From: Herbinix hemicellulosilytica
Lineage (GTDB): Bacteria > Bacillota > Clostridia > Lachnospirales > Lachnospiraceae
DNA: 64,000 bases
Assembly (NCBI RefSeq): GCF_002904165.1
Contig: NZ_CVTD020000025.1
Coordinates: forward strand, 1-64,000
Reading direction: 5' to 3'
The first letter of the stretch is position 1; every line of letters begins with the position of its first letter. The notes under the pieces were generated by a model. That model searched no databases and was not told where the DNA came from. It saw nothing but the letters and a program-made list of their open reading frames with translations. A program made the position numbers and the translations under genes. Shown here in pieces: positions 54,633-64,000 of this stretch.

Positions 54633-54890
54633 AAAAAATCTCAAGTATAAAATACTTGAGACGAATAAAATCCGCGGTGCCACTCAATTTGGCAAATACT
54701 TGCCCACCTCTTACATATACGTTACATATATGCCATCCTTTTAACGGAGATGGATTCCGTCAACGCCTACTGCAATTTCGGGTTGCCCTCGAAAGCCCAT
54801 TCAGCTAAAGACTCCATATCGCACTCTCACCGCCGGCGACTCTCTGTGATTTCGTACAATAGCCTACTCCTCTTTCTCATCGGTTTAACT
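54633..54890 (-). ncRNA. T-box leader of trpXYZ (tryptophan)
   Basis: On the minus strand: GATGAGAAAGAGGAGTAGGC at the base of stem I, specifier region GAATGGGCTTTCGAGGGC with TGG at 54797-54799, T-box sequence GAGTGGCACCGCGG (54671-54684), and the terminator CTCAAGTA/TACTTGAG followed by ATTTTTTT. The TGGC of the T-box pairs with GCCA, so the discriminator base is G, as in tRNA-Trp and unlike tRNA-Met. It matches the trpB2 leader closely around the specifier. Confidence 0.95.
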
Positions 54891-55130: not shown

Positions 55131-57563
55131 TCACAACACAATAACCTCATGTTTTTTGCCGTCGTCAACCAGCTTAAGGCGCTTGCCATTCACCCTGTTG
55201 CCATCTACCAGCAGTGCTTCGGTAGTGAGCCTGCCCCTTTTCCTGTTTTCCACCCTTATCTCATATTCCGAACTTCCATATTTATACCAAACCGTATAAT
55301 CTCCGAAGCCGGCCGGAGTGGCCGGATCGATAACAAGAGTATCCGCCTCCTTCCTTATGCCCAAAAACCAAAAAAGCAAACCCTGGTACATCCAGCCTGC
55401 TGAACCCGTATACCAGCTCCAGCCGCCGCGTCCGGCATATGGCGGACAAGAGGAAATATCCGCCACCATTACATAGGGCTCCTTTTCATACCTGATTGTA
55501 TCCCTGCTGTTGGAGCAAATATGGATAGGATTAAGCATGGTAAAGAGTTTATGGGCCATGTCATACTCCCTCATCATGGCGGTGGCAATAGCCAGCCATA
55601 TGGCGGCATGGGTATATTGGCCGCCGTTTTCCCTGATACCCGGCAGATAGTTCTTTATATAACCGGGATTTTTGTTAGTCTTGTTAAAGGGAGGGGTAAG
55701 AAGCAAAGATACAAAGTCCTCCTCCCTCACCAGATAGCGCCATGCCGACCGCATGGCCTGTATACTTTTTTCCCTGCTGCCGGCCCCCGATATGATACTC
55801 CAGGACTGGCTGATGGAATCTATCATACACTCGTCATTGTCCTTGGAGCCCAGCTTTGTGCCGTCATCATAAAACGCCCTCAGATACCAATTGCCGTCCC
55901 AGCAATTTTCATTAAGGCTTCTTTGCAGGCCGTCCCTTTTTGCCTCAAGCTGAGCCGCATATTCGGTATCCTTCATATGCAGACACAAAGGAATAAAATC
56001 CGTCAGCACCTTATAAAAGAACCAGCCCAGCCATACGCTTTCACCCTTTCCTCCTATTCCAACCTCGTTCATTCCGTCATTCCAGTCTCCCCCTCCCATC
56101 AGCGGGATACCGTGCTGTCCAAAATGGATTCTGTCTATTGTTTTCTTGCAATGTTCATACACACTTCCGGCCTTAGGCGAAACCTCAGGGGTAAACATAA
56201 TTTCATGTTTACTTTCATCAAGCAAAGGCCCCTTTATATAGTTTACCTCCTCCTTAAGTATAGAATAATCCCCCGTTGCCCTTATATAGACTTCCACCGC
56301 ATAGGGCAGCCACAGCAGGTCATCACTTATCTTAGTGCGGACTCCCACACCATGAGGAGGGTGCCACCAGTGCTGAACATCCCCTTCTTCAAACTGCCTG
56401 CTGCAGGCAATCAAAATCTGAGTGCGCAAAGCATCAGGATCAGCAAGCTGCAATGCCAGCGAATCCTGCAGCTGGTCACGAAAGCCTATGGCACCTCCGC
56501 ACTGGTAAAAGGCGGTCTTGGCATTTAGTCTGCAGGAAATGGTCTGATATAGGAGCCATCTGTTAATAAGTATATCAATTGCCCTGTCGCCGGTCTTTAC
56601 CCGAACAGTTCCCAGAATTTTATCCCAGTATTGCCTAACCCTTTCAAGTTCAATTTCAGCATTTGCAATATCCCTGTATTTGCTGCGAAGCTGCTTTATC
56701 TCATTCGGATCGTTGCTCTGTCCCAAGGCAAAAAGGACGGTGGAGCTTTCACCGGGCTTCATTTCAAGTGATACCTGTATAGCTCCGCAAGAGTCGTAGC
56801 AAACACCGCAATTTTTAGAAAGAGTCTTATCCGCTCCACTGGGGCTTTGTATGGAGCCCTTTAAGCCTATAAACTCCTTCCTGTCACCTGTATAGCCCAG
56901 GGTGGGAAGATTAGAAAAGATATATGAAATTCTGTCGCCAAAGTTAAATGTATACAAGTTTTTCGCATAGAAGTAATCCTGCTCCTTGTCATATCCGGTG
57001 CATATATAAGGGCTGGTATGCTCCCTGCTGGTCCCCAGCACCCACTCAAGATAATAGCTAAGCCTCAGATACCTGTTCCTGTATGAATTATTGGTTAGCT
57101 TAAGCAGCCATAGCTTGATTGACTCATCAATGGGGGTAAATACCACAAGTTCCTGTGCAAGCTCCTCTTCCTCATGCAGGAATTTGCTATAGCCGATTCC
57201 GTCTCTGACCCTGTAAAGGCCCCGATCAGTTCTGCCAAGCGACATTGGAGTCATTATGGTACCGCTGGTTTCATCAAGAATATAAATAGCTTCGGAAGAC
57301 CTGTCACAAACAGGGTCATTGCTCCAGGAGGTGATTTTGTTTTCCCGGCTGTTGATTGCCCAGGTGAAGCCTCCTCCTGATTCCGATATCTGAAAGCCGA
57401 ATTTCTTGTTTGCAACAACATTGATCCAGGGGACAGGCGGCCGCTTATGTCCATCCAGCACTATTTCATACTCGCTTCCGTCATTAATAAAGCCTCCAAA
57501 TCCATTAAAGAACTCATATTCGGCCAAATTTAACATCTGCAGGTTTCCTGGCTTTCTATCCAA
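55131..57563 (-). CDS. GH94-type glucan phosphorylase, C-terminal half of a split cyclic beta-1,2-glucan synthase
   Basis: About 810 residues. N-terminal supersandwich (FFNGFGGF, PWINVVANKKFGFQISESGGGF, SWSNDPV) and a GH94 alpha/alpha-barrel with GAIGFRDQLQDSLAL, QHWWHPPHGVGVRTKISDD and the general acid Asp in GGGDWNDGMN. In Brucella and Agrobacterium this domain is the C-terminus of Cgs and trims glucan length. Here it is a separate gene in the same frame as its partner, divided by TAG GAG. TTG 57563 has GGAGG eight bases before it and is preferred to GTG 57572, which overlaps that site. Confidence 0.93.
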   Translation of the reverse strand: MDRKPGNLQMLNLAEYEFFNGFGGFINDGSEYEIVLDGHKRPPVPWINVVANKKFGFQISESGGGFTWAINSRENKITSWSNDPVCDRSSEAIYILDETSGTIMTPMSLGRTDRGLYRVRDGIGYSKFLHEEEELAQELVVFTPIDESIKLWLLKLTNNSYRNRYLRLSYYLEWVLGTSREHTSPYICTGYDKEQDYFYAKNLYTFNFGDRISYIFSNLPTLGYTGDRKEFIGLKGSIQSPSGADKTLSKNCGVCYDSCGAIQVSLEMKPGESSTVLFALGQSNDPNEIKQLRSKYRDIANAEIELERVRQYWDKILGTVRVKTGDRAIDILINRWLLYQTISCRLNAKTAFYQCGGAIGFRDQLQDSLALQLADPDALRTQILIACSRQFEEGDVQHWWHPPHGVGVRTKISDDLLWLPYAVEVYIRATGDYSILKEEVNYIKGPLLDESKHEIMFTPEVSPKAGSVYEHCKKTIDRIHFGQHGIPLMGGGDWNDGMNEVGIGGKGESVWLGWFFYKVLTDFIPLCLHMKDTEYAAQLEAKRDGLQRSLNENCWDGNWYLRAFYDDGTKLGSKDNDECMIDSISQSWSIISGAGSREKSIQAMRSAWRYLVREEDFVSLLLTPPFNKTNKNPGYIKNYLPGIRENGGQYTHAAIWLAIATAMMREYDMAHKLFTMLNPIHICSNSRDTIRYEKEPYVMVADISSCPPYAGRGGWSWYTGSAGWMYQGLLFWFLGIRKEADTLVIDPATPAGFGDYTVWYKYGSSEYEIRVENRKRGRLTTEALLVDGNRVNGKRLKLVDDGKKHEVIVL

Positions 57564-57575
57564 ATCATTCACCTC

Positions 57576-60500
57576 CTAGTCCTCGGAATCGGAAAATTCC
57601 TCACTGAATTTTCTGAAATAAATGCCGCTTTTTTCAGTAAATACAACCCTTGCCACAGTATATATAAGATTTATTTCATCCTCGCTCATATCATAGGTAT
57701 GCAGGACATGAAAGCCGGGTTTGCTGCCTGCATCATAAATCCTAAGCGAGCTTGTCATGTCATTTATCATTTCATCCAACTCCTGCAAATAGACTTGCTT
57801 GGTTTCTATCATTATTACCAAATCCACATCCAGGCGGTTGATTCTGTAGTATTCATAGGCCTTCAGAACATCCTTTATTATTCCGGCATTCTGGACTGAC
57901 TTTACAATTAAAAGCATAATCGGATTATCACCTGATATACCAAATCTCCACAAAGCACTCTGGTTTTTAATGTTCCTTATTATATTTTTCTGAGGCCCCC
58001 TGTAGGCTGCATTCGGATAGAATATCGGGCTAATAAGATCCTGAAAGGCCGTCAGCTGATTTCTGCCTATTTCAAGATACTTGAGCTCTATTTCACTCTG
58101 CAGCTTGAACTTTTCGAATACATCATCAATCCTGTATTCATTATCAAGCTCCTCGGAAATCATAACTGCCTCTTCCACGCTTTCGCATACCCCGGTTATA
58201 AAGCTGACGGATGCACTTTGGCCGGCTGGTATAATTATAGTCACACGAAGGCTCATAATCGGGTCATTGCAAAAGCCTGCCTGATTGGAGAAAGGTAGGC
58301 TTTCTACTACTGCCGCCGGATTTTCAGGACTGTTATTTCTGCCTATGAATCTCATCCTGTCATTTTCATATTCAATCTTTTTAACCGGCCTTCTGTCGGT
58401 TTTTACTGTATGCATCAGGTAGAGGCTTTCTCCTGTTTTGCCGGAACGTCTCCTGGAGAGGAATATTTTTTGCTCAGGCAAAAATTCGCTTTCTATAAAT
58501 AATTTGTTGAATGCCGGATGGCTCAGCTCAGCCAGATGGCTGTCTGCCACCACCTCAAGATAGCTGGTAATTTCCAGTCTTTTTGCTTCCTTTGAACGGT
58601 TTGTAAGTTTTACCTTTCTGATTTCAATATTATGGCTGGGTGACAGGCTCACCTGGGTATGGGTGGATATATCTCCGTCTCTCCTTTTAAACTCTGCCTT
58701 ATACGGAGAGAATATGGCCTGGTATTCGTCAGGCTCAGTCCTTGTGGGATGGTAGGTGCTGCTCCAAAGCTTGCCTGTGCCAAGATCCTTTATATAGATA
58801 TACTGACCGGTATTGGCATGGACATCAGCCCTAAAACGATGAATCATCATATTCATATATTTACTGAAGCCGTCTCCGTCCGAAGTTATCATCAGGGAGT
58901 ATTTGTTGTTGGACAGATAACATACAATCGGAACGTCCGGAGCAGGGCTTCCGACATATCTGTTGCTGTAAAGATTTTCGCGAAAATAGCTTTTGTCTAT
59001 ATTTATCGTATATCCCCTCTTGGCAAGCGATATCAAATAGGATTGCCTTTTTTCTTCAAGAAGGGCTTCGGCCGACTTCACCATAGGCTCTGCATGAAAT
59101 CTTTTTCTCATGACGCCATCATTTAAAAGATTATTGACGGCAACCAGATTCATTCCCTGATGATGGGCCATAAAGGAAGTTACGATTTTATAAGGCTTCA
59201 TATTAATGGCATCAGGTCCGTTAAAGTCCACCGCTTCGTAAAAGCCGTACTTACCATATACCCCCAGTTTTTTTAGCAGCCTTAAGTTCTTTATGCCGGC
59301 ACTGCCTGCATATTCAAGTGCTAACATTGTTGAATATGGAGATACGACAAAGGAATTTTTGCGTACCGGCTGCAGCCTCAGCTTTGGAACACCAAAGGCC
59401 CTGTATTGATAATTTGCATTCAAATCAAAGCGGTAATACTGGGATTCAGATATACCCCAAGGAATTTTCTTGGTTTTTGCATAGTGCATTTGCTGCAATA
59501 CAGCAGCTTTAGCGCTTTCTGCAAAAACCGAGCCGGAAAATTCCTTCATCACCAGATTTGGCATCAGGTATTCAAACATGGTACCACTCCAGGAGACAAA
59601 ACAGGGTATTCCCTTGATTAAGGTAAGTGGCCTGCCCAGACGGAACCAGTGCTTTAAGGGCACATCTCCCCTGGCTATAGCCAGAAAGCTGGTAAGGGCA
59701 GATTCAGAGGCTATTAAATCATAGCAGCCGCTGTCAAGGGTATTTGATGATACATGATAGCCTATATGAAACAGAAGCCTTTTTCTGTTAAAGAGGAAGC
59801 CAAAATCCATGTCGTTTAAAATACCGTCAATTTTTTTGCACAGCTCATTGATTTTTTCTGCAGTTGCCCTTGCCTTTTTGTTATCCTGAAAGACCAGCTC
59901 CATAAGGCTTGGACATGAAGCAACTGCATAATCTTTAAGATTATAGCCGGTTATTTCATCAATCAGTGTTTCTATATTTTCAGCAAGCTGGGCAAACCAG
60001 ACAGGATTTTCCTTGGGCTTTGGCTCCCTTTCTGAAATATCATCCCAGATATAGCTGATATCCTCCAATAGGTCATTAAAGGTTGAATAGCTGTCTTTAA
60101 TTTCAAATTCCGGATTGCATAACCTTGCGGTTTTTTTAATCTCCCGCAGCAAATCCCCCGTTATAACCGGAGTTCTCAGCTGTTGAAGGAGGCCGTTTTT
60201 TAAGGCAATCATATGACCGAGAAAATTACCGCTGTCAACTGTGGAAATATAATCCGGATTAAGCACCTCAAGCGTTTTTATCTGATACCAGTTATACAAA
60301 TGCCCCTTCCACTTAGGAAGCTGCATAACCGTATCAAGCAGTTTTTCAATTCTGTCTATGGTTGAGCTCAGACTTTCAAAACCCAGATCCCTGGCGGACA
60401 AAATGGCAAGGAACTGGAGGCCTATATTGGTTGGTGAGGTTTTATCGGTAATTTTTACGCTGCTTGTTATCTGATAATTATCCGGACACAGCCAATTGTT

Positions 60501-63500
60501 TTCTTGGCCGGATAACTGTTTGAAAAACTGCCAGGTATGCCTGCAGGTATCCAATAAAAATTCCCTGTCATCGGCACTGAGCGCGGCTCCTTTTTGCTCC
60601 TTGGGCCTGCTTATTAAATAGGCAATATAAAAGGCCATAATCCATAACAATACAAGTATGCCGTATATTAAATTGCCTGCTACATTAAGCCTTGCTAAAA
60701 AAAGCAGGGGCAAAATAACTGCCACAGGAAGCAGAGAACTCCACATGGATAAAAAATATCCCTTTTTAGTATTTCGTATTGAGGCATCTACCGCTTCAGC
60801 CGTGTTCCAGTTTAGTAAGTTCTTTTTACTAACGGTCAGCCGGTATAGGGTCCTGATAATTGCATCATAAGCGGAATATGCCCGGTAAGGGGTAAGCACC
60901 AGCTCAAGAAAGCTTCGCTCAAGCGTATAGTATATATCCTTAATCAGTTGCCTATACAGCAGAGCGAGCTTTGGACGGCTGATTTTCTTGGCTATTATTG
61001 TGACCAGCAAAATTATCAGGTTAAGAATATCATTGAAAAACACCAAAGGCAGCCAGAGATAAAATAGATCCGGAAGCAGAGCAAGATTTAAGATAATGAA
61101 CAGTATCTTGCTGCCAGGAACAAGGCTGCGCCTCAGATTGTCAAATATCTTCCATTTTGATAAGGCACATAAGCTTCTGCCGGTTTTGTCCTTCTTAAAG
61201 AGCCAGGGCAGAAGCTGCCAGTCGCCCCTTATCCATCTGTGTTCTCTCTTTATATACGAAAGCACACTACTTGGAAAGCTGTCCATTATTTTGGCTGCAC
61301 TTGAAAATGCGCATCTGGTATAACAGCTTTCCAGCAGGTCATGGCTTAAAACCGTATTTTCCTGAATAACTCCGTCAAGTAAATAGTGGAAGGCCTCTAC
61401 ATTATAAATTCCCTTGCCTGTGTAAATTGCCTGGCCGAAAATATCCTGATATATATCGGATATCACGGTTGAATAGCTGTCCAGCCCGGATTGACCGCCA
61501 AATATTAGGGTAAAGCGGCTGCAGTTTGCAGGGGGGATATGATTTCTTACCTCAGGCTGAATAATAACGTAACCCTCTTTCACCTTTTTAGTTTCCCTGT
61601 CAATAACCGCCCTGTTCAACGGATGATCTATAAGGCCCACAAGTTTTGCGGCATTGTCCCTGATCAGGTCAGAATCTGCATCAAGGGTAATTACATATTT
61701 GAAGCTTTTCAGCAACTGTCTGTCGCACAGAATATGTGAGAAACTGGTACCGGCCTCATCCTGTCCAACCAAAATCCTGTTAAGCTCCTCAAGCTTTCCT
61801 CTTTTTCTTTCCCAGCACATGTAGCATTTTTCCGATGGGTTCCACTTACGATAGCGGATAAAAAGGCTAAAGCGCGCAGGCTGTGCCGGATATAGCTCAT
61901 TAAGTTCATTAAGACGGTTAATAAGCGCTTCTTCTATAACAACATCTGTCTCCATCTTCTCTGCCGGAGCGTCCATGTAGTCGGCCAAAAGGGCAAAATA
62001 GAGATTATCCTGCCGGTTGGCAAGATATAGCTTATGGAGCCTTTCCATATACTCGAGTGCCTGCTCTTTTGAGGATACAATAACAGGCATGACAACAAAA
62101 GTTCTTGCACTATCCGGAATCCCGTCAAGATAGTCTAGGGCAGGTATTTTCTTAGTCTGAACAGCTCTGGTAAAGATGTTATTTACTATCTCCTGAGCTA
62201 TCCCCATAAGCAAGGGCAAGGCTGCAATTATCATTAAGATGGTTGCCACCTGCTTTGGAACTAAGCCTATAGCTTCCTTGTTCCTATAGAAGCTTGCGGC
62301 TATAATTGACGCAAGCAGGCTAATGCTTACAGCCAGCACAAAAATATATGTGGCAAAATACATTAAGCCCTTGATATTAATTCTTTTTCGTTTTATATCA
62401 GGCATGGCTTTGTGCAATAATTTTGCCTTCAACAGCTTATAACCATTGCCCATAAGATAGCTGCCTACATGATGGGGGAAGTTTAGTTCAGCCTTACCCT
62501 CCACAGCAAGCCTCAAGCATTCATCTGCAATATCAACCTCACTCAGTTTATACCTAATGGCAAGTTTTACTATTTTGCCGCGATATAAACCCTTGCTCTC
62601 TGAATCCATCCTGGGATAAACACCGTCCGGGTCCTTTGACAGGATATGCTCCAGGCTGGAAAATTCGGCATAAAATTTTTCTTCATCAATCTCATTGATT
62701 TCCCGGAGGCTGATAACCAGGGCACGGATGATAGCCTCCAGATGGGACTGGGTTTTACCCTCCTCCTGGAATATATGTGTCGGGCTAAGCTTCATGCCAT
62801 TGCCATTGCAATGGTATTCGACATAGCGCAATATATCGGTATCACTGAATGACATATTTTTAAGCAGATATATAACATGCGAGTGGAAGGAATAGTTATC
62901 CTTGCAATCCGGCTCGGTTTCACATAGCAAGGATGCGATATCCGTTATTTCCTTCCCCTGGCGCAACTTTTCCTTAACCAGTTTGTCAGCCTTAGCCTTG
63001 ATTTTGATTATTTTAAGAATATCGTCAGCAACCTCTATTATGTTTTCCAGCAGGCAAAAGCCGATAACCTCAGGAAGAACCCAGATCTCCTTGTCTGTCA
63101 AGGGTATTTCCTCCTGGTAAGCCTTCAGCATAAGGGAAATGTTTTCATAGTTGAGATGGCCTCCGGAAAGGGCGACCATTTTCTTTGCCAGTATATAAAC
63201 CCTCGGGTATCCGCGATACTGCCGGGCTTTCAAAATCGGAAGTACCTCATAGCTGGTCCCTGAGCTTCTTACCTTCTTAATCTGACGATACATCATCTGA
63301 TAATTGTCAAACAGCCATCTTGCTGCCGGTATCATGGCAATAATATCGGACGGAACAGCCGTAATGCTTTTTCTGATTTTATTCAGCCTTTTATATGCAA
63401 CCTGATTATAGTCATCGAGGACAAAATTATATCTCATCAGCCTGACATCCTTGTGCTCCGCTGCCAGAGCAAGCATTTGCCTTCTTATGTCTTCGGGCTT

Positions 63501-63677
63501 GTACATGCTTATTGTGTCTTCAGTTTCCATCTGAAAATGTATCCGTTTTCTCAAATGCCTGTAGCGGATGTACAAAAACACAAGAATGCACCAGAAAATA
63601 GCTGTCAGTACAAGTATTGCTATTAATCTGTCAGGCATATTGAGGAAAAATCTATATCCAAGCAATATGTTAAGCAC
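57576..63677 (-). CDS. Cyclic beta-1,2-glucan synthase, synthase half (GT84)
   Basis: 2,033 residues. Membrane helix at 17-37, two more near 435-500; GT84 glycosyltransferase with VITLDADSDLI (about residue 665), GKGIYNVEAF, SHDLLE and HRWIRGDWQ (about 812); further helices at 850-900 and 975-1025; a glucoamylase-like domain (about 1075-1545, TVDSGNFLGHM, CFVSWSGTMFEYLMP, TSFMAHHQGMN) and the first GH94-type supersandwich (1590-1740). It should start, elongate and cyclise beta-1,2-glucan at the membrane. With the next gene it totals about 2,845 residues, the size of intact Cgs. Start GTG with GGAGG about ten bases upstream. It ends at TAG 57576-57578. Confidence 0.93.
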   Translation of the reverse strand: MLNILLGYRFFLNMPDRLIAILVLTAIFWCILVFLYIRYRHLRKRIHFQMETEDTISMYKPEDIRRQMLALAAEHKDVRLMRYNFVLDDYNQVAYKRLNKIRKSITAVPSDIIAMIPAARWLFDNYQMMYRQIKKVRSSGTSYEVLPILKARQYRGYPRVYILAKKMVALSGGHLNYENISLMLKAYQEEIPLTDKEIWVLPEVIGFCLLENIIEVADDILKIIKIKAKADKLVKEKLRQGKEITDIASLLCETEPDCKDNYSFHSHVIYLLKNMSFSDTDILRYVEYHCNGNGMKLSPTHIFQEEGKTQSHLEAIIRALVISLREINEIDEEKFYAEFSSLEHILSKDPDGVYPRMDSESKGLYRGKIVKLAIRYKLSEVDIADECLRLAVEGKAELNFPHHVGSYLMGNGYKLLKAKLLHKAMPDIKRKRINIKGLMYFATYIFVLAVSISLLASIIAASFYRNKEAIGLVPKQVATILMIIAALPLLMGIAQEIVNNIFTRAVQTKKIPALDYLDGIPDSARTFVVMPVIVSSKEQALEYMERLHKLYLANRQDNLYFALLADYMDAPAEKMETDVVIEEALINRLNELNELYPAQPARFSLFIRYRKWNPSEKCYMCWERKRGKLEELNRILVGQDEAGTSFSHILCDRQLLKSFKYVITLDADSDLIRDNAAKLVGLIDHPLNRAVIDRETKKVKEGYVIIQPEVRNHIPPANCSRFTLIFGGQSGLDSYSTVISDIYQDIFGQAIYTGKGIYNVEAFHYLLDGVIQENTVLSHDLLESCYTRCAFSSAAKIMDSFPSSVLSYIKREHRWIRGDWQLLPWLFKKDKTGRSLCALSKWKIFDNLRRSLVPGSKILFIILNLALLPDLFYLWLPLVFFNDILNLIILLVTIIAKKISRPKLALLYRQLIKDIYYTLERSFLELVLTPYRAYSAYDAIIRTLYRLTVSKKNLLNWNTAEAVDASIRNTKKGYFLSMWSSLLPVAVILPLLFLARLNVAGNLIYGILVLLWIMAFYIAYLISRPKEQKGAALSADDREFLLDTCRHTWQFFKQLSGQENNWLCPDNYQITSSVKITDKTSPTNIGLQFLAILSARDLGFESLSSTIDRIEKLLDTVMQLPKWKGHLYNWYQIKTLEVLNPDYISTVDSGNFLGHMIALKNGLLQQLRTPVITGDLLREIKKTARLCNPEFEIKDSYSTFNDLLEDISYIWDDISEREPKPKENPVWFAQLAENIETLIDEITGYNLKDYAVASCPSLMELVFQDNKKARATAEKINELCKKIDGILNDMDFGFLFNRKRLLFHIGYHVSSNTLDSGCYDLIASESALTSFLAIARGDVPLKHWFRLGRPLTLIKGIPCFVSWSGTMFEYLMPNLVMKEFSGSVFAESAKAAVLQQMHYAKTKKIPWGISESQYYRFDLNANYQYRAFGVPKLRLQPVRKNSFVVSPYSTMLALEYAGSAGIKNLRLLKKLGVYGKYGFYEAVDFNGPDAINMKPYKIVTSFMAHHQGMNLVAVNNLLNDGVMRKRFHAEPMVKSAEALLEEKRQSYLISLAKRGYTINIDKSYFRENLYSNRYVGSPAPDVPIVCYLSNNKYSLMITSDGDGFSKYMNMMIHRFRADVHANTGQYIYIKDLGTGKLWSSTYHPTRTEPDEYQAIFSPYKAEFKRRDGDISTHTQVSLSPSHNIEIRKVKLTNRSKEAKRLEITSYLEVVADSHLAELSHPAFNKLFIESEFLPEQKIFLSRRRSGKTGESLYLMHTVKTDRRPVKKIEYENDRMRFIGRNNSPENPAAVVESLPFSNQAGFCNDPIMSLRVTIIIPAGQSASVSFITGVCESVEEAVMISEELDNEYRIDDVFEKFKLQSEIELKYLEIGRNQLTAFQDLISPIFYPNAAYRGPQKNIIRNIKNQSALWRFGISGDNPIMLLIVKSVQNAGIIKDVLKAYEYYRINRLDVDLVIMIETKQVYLQELDEMINDMTSSLRIYDAGSKPGFHVLHTYDMSEDEINLIYTVARVVFTEKSGIYFRKFSEEFSDSED

Positions 63678-64000
63678 TTTCGTGGCTCCTCCTTACCAAA
63701 AGTTAATTCTTCAAATATATGCCAATCAAGACTAAAGCATTATCTTATATATAGTTTGTCTTTTTTTAAAATAAAAAAACAGCCCAATATTATATTGTGC
63801 CATTTTTGTCATATCTTATTATTTTTTAATTTAATTATGTTATATATTGCTGCCACCACTTAATAGGCATTCATATTTGGTTGGCAAACCCACTTTTATG
63901 ATAAACATATAAGGTTTAATATTAAAATACTAATCGGAGACATACCTGCACAGCAAATAGTTTTATTGTATAAAACAAAAAAAGCCCAAAAGCATGCACT
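63678..64000. other. Upstream region of the glucan synthase gene
   Basis: No gene found. It must hold the promoter of the synthase; a TAAGAT/GATAAT-like -10 lies near 63735-63750 without a clear -35. The last bases (poly-A then GCCC) may be the edge of a terminator of a gene beyond the window. Confidence 0.4.

Follow-up and report, generated by a model that had tools for sequence, protein, structure and literature searches.

Two adjacent genes on the minus strand of the window, the 64,000-nucleotide stretch of Herbinix hemicellulosilytica DNA that was analyzed, encode the putative halves of a cyclic glucan synthase (Cgs). The features of the two genes and of their junction are:

57576..63677, minus strand: coding sequence of the synthase subunit, 2,033 aa, with a GTG start and a TAG end, comprising an N-terminal domain, GT84, the GH189 cyclase (CY), the GP1 supersandwich and RFL
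63688..63694, minus strand: AAGGAGG, Shine-Dalgarno (SD) sequence of the synthase, 10 nt before the GTG start
57576..57578, minus strand: TAG stop codon of the synthase, reading at 57578-57576
57570..57577, minus strand: AGGAGGTG, SD sequence of the GH94 gene, overlapping the synthase stop
57561..57563, minus strand: TTG start codon of the GH94 gene
55131..57563, minus strand: coding sequence of the GH94 phosphorylase subunit (GP2-GP3), 810 aa from the TTG, with the stop codon TGA at 55133-55131

Across the junction the minus strand reads GAG GAC TAG GAG GTG AAT GAT TTG GAT, and the GH94 open reading frame (ORF) lies in frame 0 relative to the synthase, directly after the TAG. An earlier note on this DNA had described an in-frame TAG between the 2,033-residue synthase and the GH94 part, with GGAGG over the stop and 8 nt from a TTG; the letters at 57578-57576 and the ORFs agree with this description, and the GGAGG is present at 57576-57572, overlapping the stop, with a spacing of 8 nt to the TTG at 57563. 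The same note held that the two products add up to about the length of a fused Cgs, and this stands: the frames of 10 of the 11 fused loci compared span 2,779-2,963 codons, the eleventh being L105, which has a frame break further upstream. A GTG at 57572-57570 is in frame and has a candidate GAGG 8 nt before it. As the GH94 start it was considered and rejected, for its position is within the SD core, and the codon there is GCA in L083, L085 and L094, all of which keep the TTG.

The Cgs transcription unit is probably just these two genes. Among frames of at least 120 aa, the nearest one upstream is divergent, and the genes downstream, at 54475-51675 on the same strand (minus), encode an ABC transporter and are preceded by a leader:

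54654..54889, minus strand: T-box leader preceding the ABC-transporter genes (Rfam RF00230, 120.6 bits, E 2.1e-27)

Because the ABC-transporter genes are preceded by a promoter-like site of their own (54937-54909, 11 of 12 matches), the T-box leader and a terminator-like stem at the end of that leader (54662-54638), they most likely form a separate transcription unit. The transporter itself is probably controlled by uncharged tRNA.

Where in the enzyme does the break fall? Pfam assigns a glucoamylase-like cyclase and one supersandwich domain to the synthase; the second ORF has another supersandwich and the GH94 catalytic domain, and its match to PF17167 has an E-value of 2.1e-114. The two proteins align consecutively with the same chain, that of Agrobacterium Cgs (PDB 8RF0): residues 100-2018 of the synthase with residues 71-1997, and residues 16-780 of the GH94 protein with residues 2042-2809. 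According to the excerpted text of PMC10901819, the C-terminal half of Agrobacterium Cgs consists of GP1, an inserted Rossmann-like subdomain, RFL (residues 1847-2012), GP2 and GP3. The synthase alignment stops at 1997 with 15 residues remaining, which projects the C-terminus of the protein to about residue 2012, where RFL ends:

57579..58076, minus strand: RFL subdomain, approximate, projected by alignment from Agrobacterium residues 1847-2012

GP1 is encoded in the synthase gene and not in the 810-residue GH94 protein. The break comes after RFL, which follows the first supersandwich, and just before the second supersandwich, the GP2 of Agrobacterium Cgs. The placement of the break between the two supersandwich domains in the earlier note is right as regards the second domain and needs refinement as regards the first, after which RFL intervenes. 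In the 18 fused rows listed, the break site is a linker of variable sequence. The predicted model of synthase residues 1560-2033 has a mean pLDDT of 83, with values below 50 only in the first 11 and last 11 residues, and its GP1-RFL structure matches Agrobacterium Cgs 8RF9 with a TM score of 0.89 by query length over 456 columns. The GH94 protein was predicted with middling confidence (pLDDT 72).

Four residues of known role in the Agrobacterium enzyme have counterparts in the two proteins:

61473..61475, minus strand: synthase Tyr735, aligned with Tyr694 of Agrobacterium Cgs
59703..59705, minus strand: synthase Glu1325, aligned with Glu1300 of Agrobacterium Cgs and invariant in 24 aligned rows
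59445..59447, minus strand: synthase Glu1411, aligned with Glu1386 of Agrobacterium Cgs and invariant in 24 aligned rows
56076..56078, minus strand: GH94 Asp496 (counting the TTG as 1), aligned with Asp2528 of Agrobacterium Cgs and invariant in 25 aligned rows

In the parts of the papers available, Tyr694 is the autoglycosylated priming residue and Asp2528 the catalytic acid of the phosphorylase (PMC10901819), and Glu1300 and Glu1386 are the cyclase residues (PMC11842490). Since the alignments show the expected letter at each of these four positions, the numbering of 8RF0 is that of the papers. Between them, the two proteins retain the priming Tyr, both cyclase Glu and the phosphorylase Asp, and by homology the pair would act as a cyclic glucan synthase. 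Nei-Gojobori dN/dS values of 0.083 against G033 and 0.119 against G020 for the synthase, and of 0.12 and 0.14 against the same two genomes for the GH94 gene, indicate that both halves are under purifying selection. In L081 (G033 C217) the GH94 gene is interrupted by a TAA at codon index 77, counted after the TAG; the window has GAA there, and the difference is either a loss or a draft error.

How does this arrangement compare with known systems? Agrobacterium Cgs (PDB 8RF0, 8RF9 and 8RFE) has the same domain order and the same priming Tyr, cyclase Glu pair and phosphorylase Asp, but it is one chain, whereas here there are two, cut between RFL and GP2. The best match of the window's cyclase stretch is 8WY1 (E 3.8e-79), with the record name Glycosyltransferase 36, which we take to be the GH189 cyclase domain of the Thermoanaerobacter italicus CGS. 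Unlike the window's enzyme, that of a Thermoanaerobacter relative (L215, not T. italicus itself) is fused. The 1,2-beta-oligoglucan phosphorylases (SOGP), including Listeria innocua Lin1839 and L. phytofermentans 5H3Z, resemble the second protein of the window in being free GH94 proteins. However, 5H3Z, with 1,113 residues, carries GP1-GP3 in one chain according to the excerpted PMC10901819, whereas the window protein consists of GP2-GP3 only, and the latter matches Cgs far better than it matches 5H3Z. Cellobiose phosphorylase, another GH94 enzyme (e.g. 3QDE), has the same size and fold as the window's GH94 protein, but is 24% identical in the structural match and by sequence gives an E-value of 6.8e-83, compared with 2e-216 for Cgs. 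In the portions of the literature covered by our search, no mention of a split Cgs was found. Judged by a stop codon and a separate start codon in at least 48 distinct junctions, the system is a two-gene variant of Cgs and not a standard member of the family.

These junctions come from a survey of relatives. The search for the GH94 protein covered 61 genomes (that of the window and 60 relatives); the search for the synthase part covered 392 from the order and 398 from the phylum, with matches at a threshold of E 1e-60 in 15 and 57, respectively. The 15 matches in the order set comprise 11 (the window's own included) with frames of 1,939-2,084 codons at 66-69% identity (own, 100%), three with frames of 2,837-2,963 codons at 35-40% identity, and one that begins at a contig end. 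Most of the other frames, those of the phylum set, span 2,727-3,037 codons; 11 rows have fewer than 2,700, and one of these, G545, was inspected, so that further splits may occur elsewhere. Its 2,083-codon frame (L105, G545 C11) was rejected as a third split form: it is a fused Cgs gene broken in frame inside the N-terminal part, with the GH94 part still fused. Junctions were read in 25 split loci, and a scan of GTDB genomes was added, of which the best 80 of at least 580 confirmed matches were used. Among these 80, 31 were called split and 45 fused; in the other four (L174, L181, L214 and L221), the synthase frame reaches the end of the contig before any GH94. L218 was taken out of the split set for a run of N inside it, leaving 30 split loci from the best 80 of 580, and the removal of seven duplicates left at least 48 distinct split junctions, the window's included; the rows are mostly close kin, and the junction counts are not independent events. 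In the scored segment, synthase identity is at least 43% for the 30 split loci and at most 40.2% for the fused ones (best 80 of 580). Within the matches listed, the GH94 gene adjoins the synthase gene in all 36 distinct split loci found with the synthase query (10 from the order set and 30 from the best 80 of 580 of the GTDB scan, less four duplicates). Within the genus, a Cgs-type GH94 at 65% identity or more was found in only 14 of 33 genomes, two being partial matches at contig ends, and the operon is therefore patchy. Genome G016 has two copies of the Cgs-type GH94.

The register of the two genes varies among relatives. In the 48 distinct split junctions listed, the GH94 gene is in frame 0, 1 and 2 in 6, 15 and 27 cases; a shared frame, expected by chance in about 1 case in 3, is not conserved. 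The synthase stop is TAG in 28 of these junctions, TAA in 16 and TGA in four, and the distance from stop to start ranges from 1 to 220 nt; it is 215-220 nt in L093/L170 and L167, and 1-70 nt in the other 46 listed. Comparisons among close relatives carry more weight than these counts. Of two near relatives of the window, G033, whose GH94 is 90% identical, shares the in-frame TAG, and G020 (88% identical) has TAAGGAGG where the window has TAGGAGG, a TAA plus one extra base that puts the genes in different frames. A second close group contains L101 (TAG) and L104 (TAA), both in frame, and their near relative L102, out of frame.

What has been kept at the junction is the arrangement for starting translation. 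Under a rule that asks for a match of at least 5 nt to TAAGGAGGTGA at a spacing of 4-12, an SD sequence precedes the GH94 start in 37 of the 48 distinct split junctions listed, always with a spacing of 7-9 nt, and the other 11 have no match of 5 nt. The start codons of the 37 are TTG in 30, ATG in five and GTG in two. In a control anchored by BLAST, an SD with a start codon was found in six of 55 fused loci (two duplicate pairs included) within the last 30 codons of the linker before GH94. Among the 29 frames of at least 200 codons in the window, genes or not, that have a start under the SD rule, ATG serves in 23 and TTG in four. By this count the TTG of the GH94 gene is unusual for the window, and it is kept in relatives, the rows being kin. 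The same TTG start recurs across many genera, though ATG dominates the window's other frames. An orthologue comparison of the stop and of the GGAGG-TTG arrangement, proposed in the earlier note, thus gave a divided answer: the SD-start arrangement is widely kept, and frame and stop drift. The suggestion that the gene has split with separate, coupled initiation is supported by the 37 junctions, 30 of them with TTG, the coupling itself being suggested by the geometry of the junction. The near-perfect SD sequence together with a weak start codon may set the subunit ratio.

Is the amber codon then a lesion in an intact gene, a site of read-through, or neither? A single codon parts the halves in this genome, as in a recent disabling mutation or a sequencing error, a reading that has next to no likelihood: among the junctions read, no fused gene was found at a synthase identity of 43% or more, against at least 48 distinct split ones, and selection has acted to preserve both halves. 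It is ruled out by a split that, on the evidence of these junctions, is old and common to the whole clade and did not arise from one amber mutation in this genome. Programmed or leaky read-through, raised in the earlier note as a way for the TAG to give both forms, would yield the short synthase together with a full-length Cgs, and would fit the summed length and the in-register frames with the same TAG in the window and G033. As a rare event confined to this lineage it is also compatible with the comparison; yet only six of the 48 distinct junctions listed are in frame, G020 has lost the register, L102 differs from L101 and L104, and the gap exceeds 200 nt in two junctions. The drift of frame and stop and the length of the gap speak against read-through, and we hold it to be very improbable. 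Weaker support comes from the decoding machinery. ARAGORN, run on stretches covering all 35 tRNA genes found, showed none with a CUA anticodon (the count of 35 comes from 150 of 167 candidates scored, in a draft genome of 35 contigs), but that list is visibly incomplete, with Phe, Tyr, Ile and Asp among the absentees, so the absence is no proof. Two matches to PylB in the draft genome, of 165.5 and 107 bits, lie under the curated cut-off of 348.2. Ordinary read-through needs neither a suppressor tRNA nor a pyrrolysine system. Taken together, the junctions point to the in-frame amber being incidental, a chance register between two old genes.

How did there come to be two genes? The GH94 tree has 105 rows, 44 split and 53 fused (among the matches listed) and eight other phosphorylases as outgroup; it omits duplicates, rows of fewer than 600 aa, and L081, L157 and L190, which have no usable GH94 match. 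All 44 split rows group into a single clade (SH-aLRT 99), and the fused L182 is sister to it (100). In the CY-GP1-RFL tree of 95 rows (42 split and 53 fused), which is without an outgroup and cannot tell direction, split and fused rows lie on opposite sides of one branch (100); this tree was rooted on a fused row, and the sister place of L182 in it is not independent of that rooting. Both trees are quick searches, and L182 has a long branch in both. Several split genes (L097, L101, L164 and L165, from another family of the order, and L160 and L183) are placed among Lachnospiraceae in the GH94 tree; most such records or group codes name other families, some being metagenome bins, which hints at horizontal transfer of the split Cgs. 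That the genes were separate from the outset and were joined later into the fused Cgs is unlikely in our view. The AU test stops short of clearly rejecting a tree that keeps every fused GH94 domain on one side (p 0.06), and fused and split rows facing each other across one branch of a tree without an outgroup would also suit ancestral separation. Against this, the tree that has an outgroup places a fused gene as sister to the split clade with support of 100, fused genes in the GH94 tree set come from records whose title or classification names Pseudomonadota, Myxococcota and Bdellovibrionota, and LpSOGP carries GP1-GP3 in one chain, as the available text of PMC10901819 describes. On this evidence, the single chain of LpSOGP included, one old fission of a fused gene is favored over ancestral separation; because of the AU result and the lack of an outgroup in the second tree, and with the long branch of L182 as a further caution, it is favored but not proven. 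Most likely, a fused gene would have undergone a single fission in the RFL-GP2 linker, in an ancestor of a Lachnospiraceae-centred clade, after which frame and stop codon would have drifted, leaving a frame that is shared by chance in this genome.

We therefore read the locus, with a probability of about 0.83, as encoding a cyclic glucan synthase of two polypeptides that are translated independently but with coupling, the split being old and clade-wide and the shared frame due to chance. The first gene would give the membrane synthase, with glycosyltransferase, cyclase, GP1 and RFL, and the second a separate polypeptide, GP2-GP3, which is the phosphorylase that controls chain length; ribosomes would terminate at the stop codon and restart by coupling at the TTG just downstream, under the strong SD sequence. 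Whether GP2-GP3 would still dock on the synthase can be approached through the Agrobacterium enzyme. In the excerpts of PMC10901819, truncations within its C-terminal half (1-1540, 1-1587 and 1-1846) are detrimental, loss of the GP catalytic acid has a minor effect only, glucan density runs from RFL to GP2 to GP3, and the C-terminal half is proposed to be both a scaffold and a length-controlling phosphorylase. If the scaffold view is valid here, GP2-GP3 must rejoin the synthase as a second subunit; if it is not, GP2-GP3 would be a free phosphorylase that trims glucan length. According to the part of PMC3960220 available, the GT part can make beta-1,2-glucan without the GH94 domain, which argues against docking being strictly required.

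That finding would also suit a free beta-1,2-oligoglucan phosphorylase, trimming or breaking down glucan without binding the synthase, as would the complete GH94 unit with its own start codon and the Listeria GH94 enzyme, which the same excerpt describes as acting on free 1,2-beta-oligoglucans (PMC3960220). We nevertheless consider this rather unlikely: in the tree the GH94 protein falls among the GH94 domains of Cgs, apart from the eight other phosphorylases, it adjoins the synthase in every one of the 36 split loci, and in Agrobacterium truncating the C-terminal half is harmful whereas mutating the GP catalytic acid is minor (PMC10901819, as excerpted). We favor a GH94 protein that functions together with the synthase. 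A more specific form of this, a natural two-subunit Cgs whose rigid RFL-GP2-GP3 glucan-binding surface, unbroken in the solved enzyme, is assembled by non-covalent docking, and in which the conserved weak TTG and its near-perfect SD sequence set the ratio of phosphorylase to synthase and hence the chain length, is put forward tentatively, at rather less than even odds.

An in-frame amber codon between the halves of an enzyme tempts one to a read-through reading, and here it is the relatives that correct that reading. In the single-chain enzyme, the scaffold and phosphorylase roles of the C-terminal half are hard to separate; where the enzyme is naturally divided between RFL and GP2, either half can be produced, left out or varied in amount on its own.
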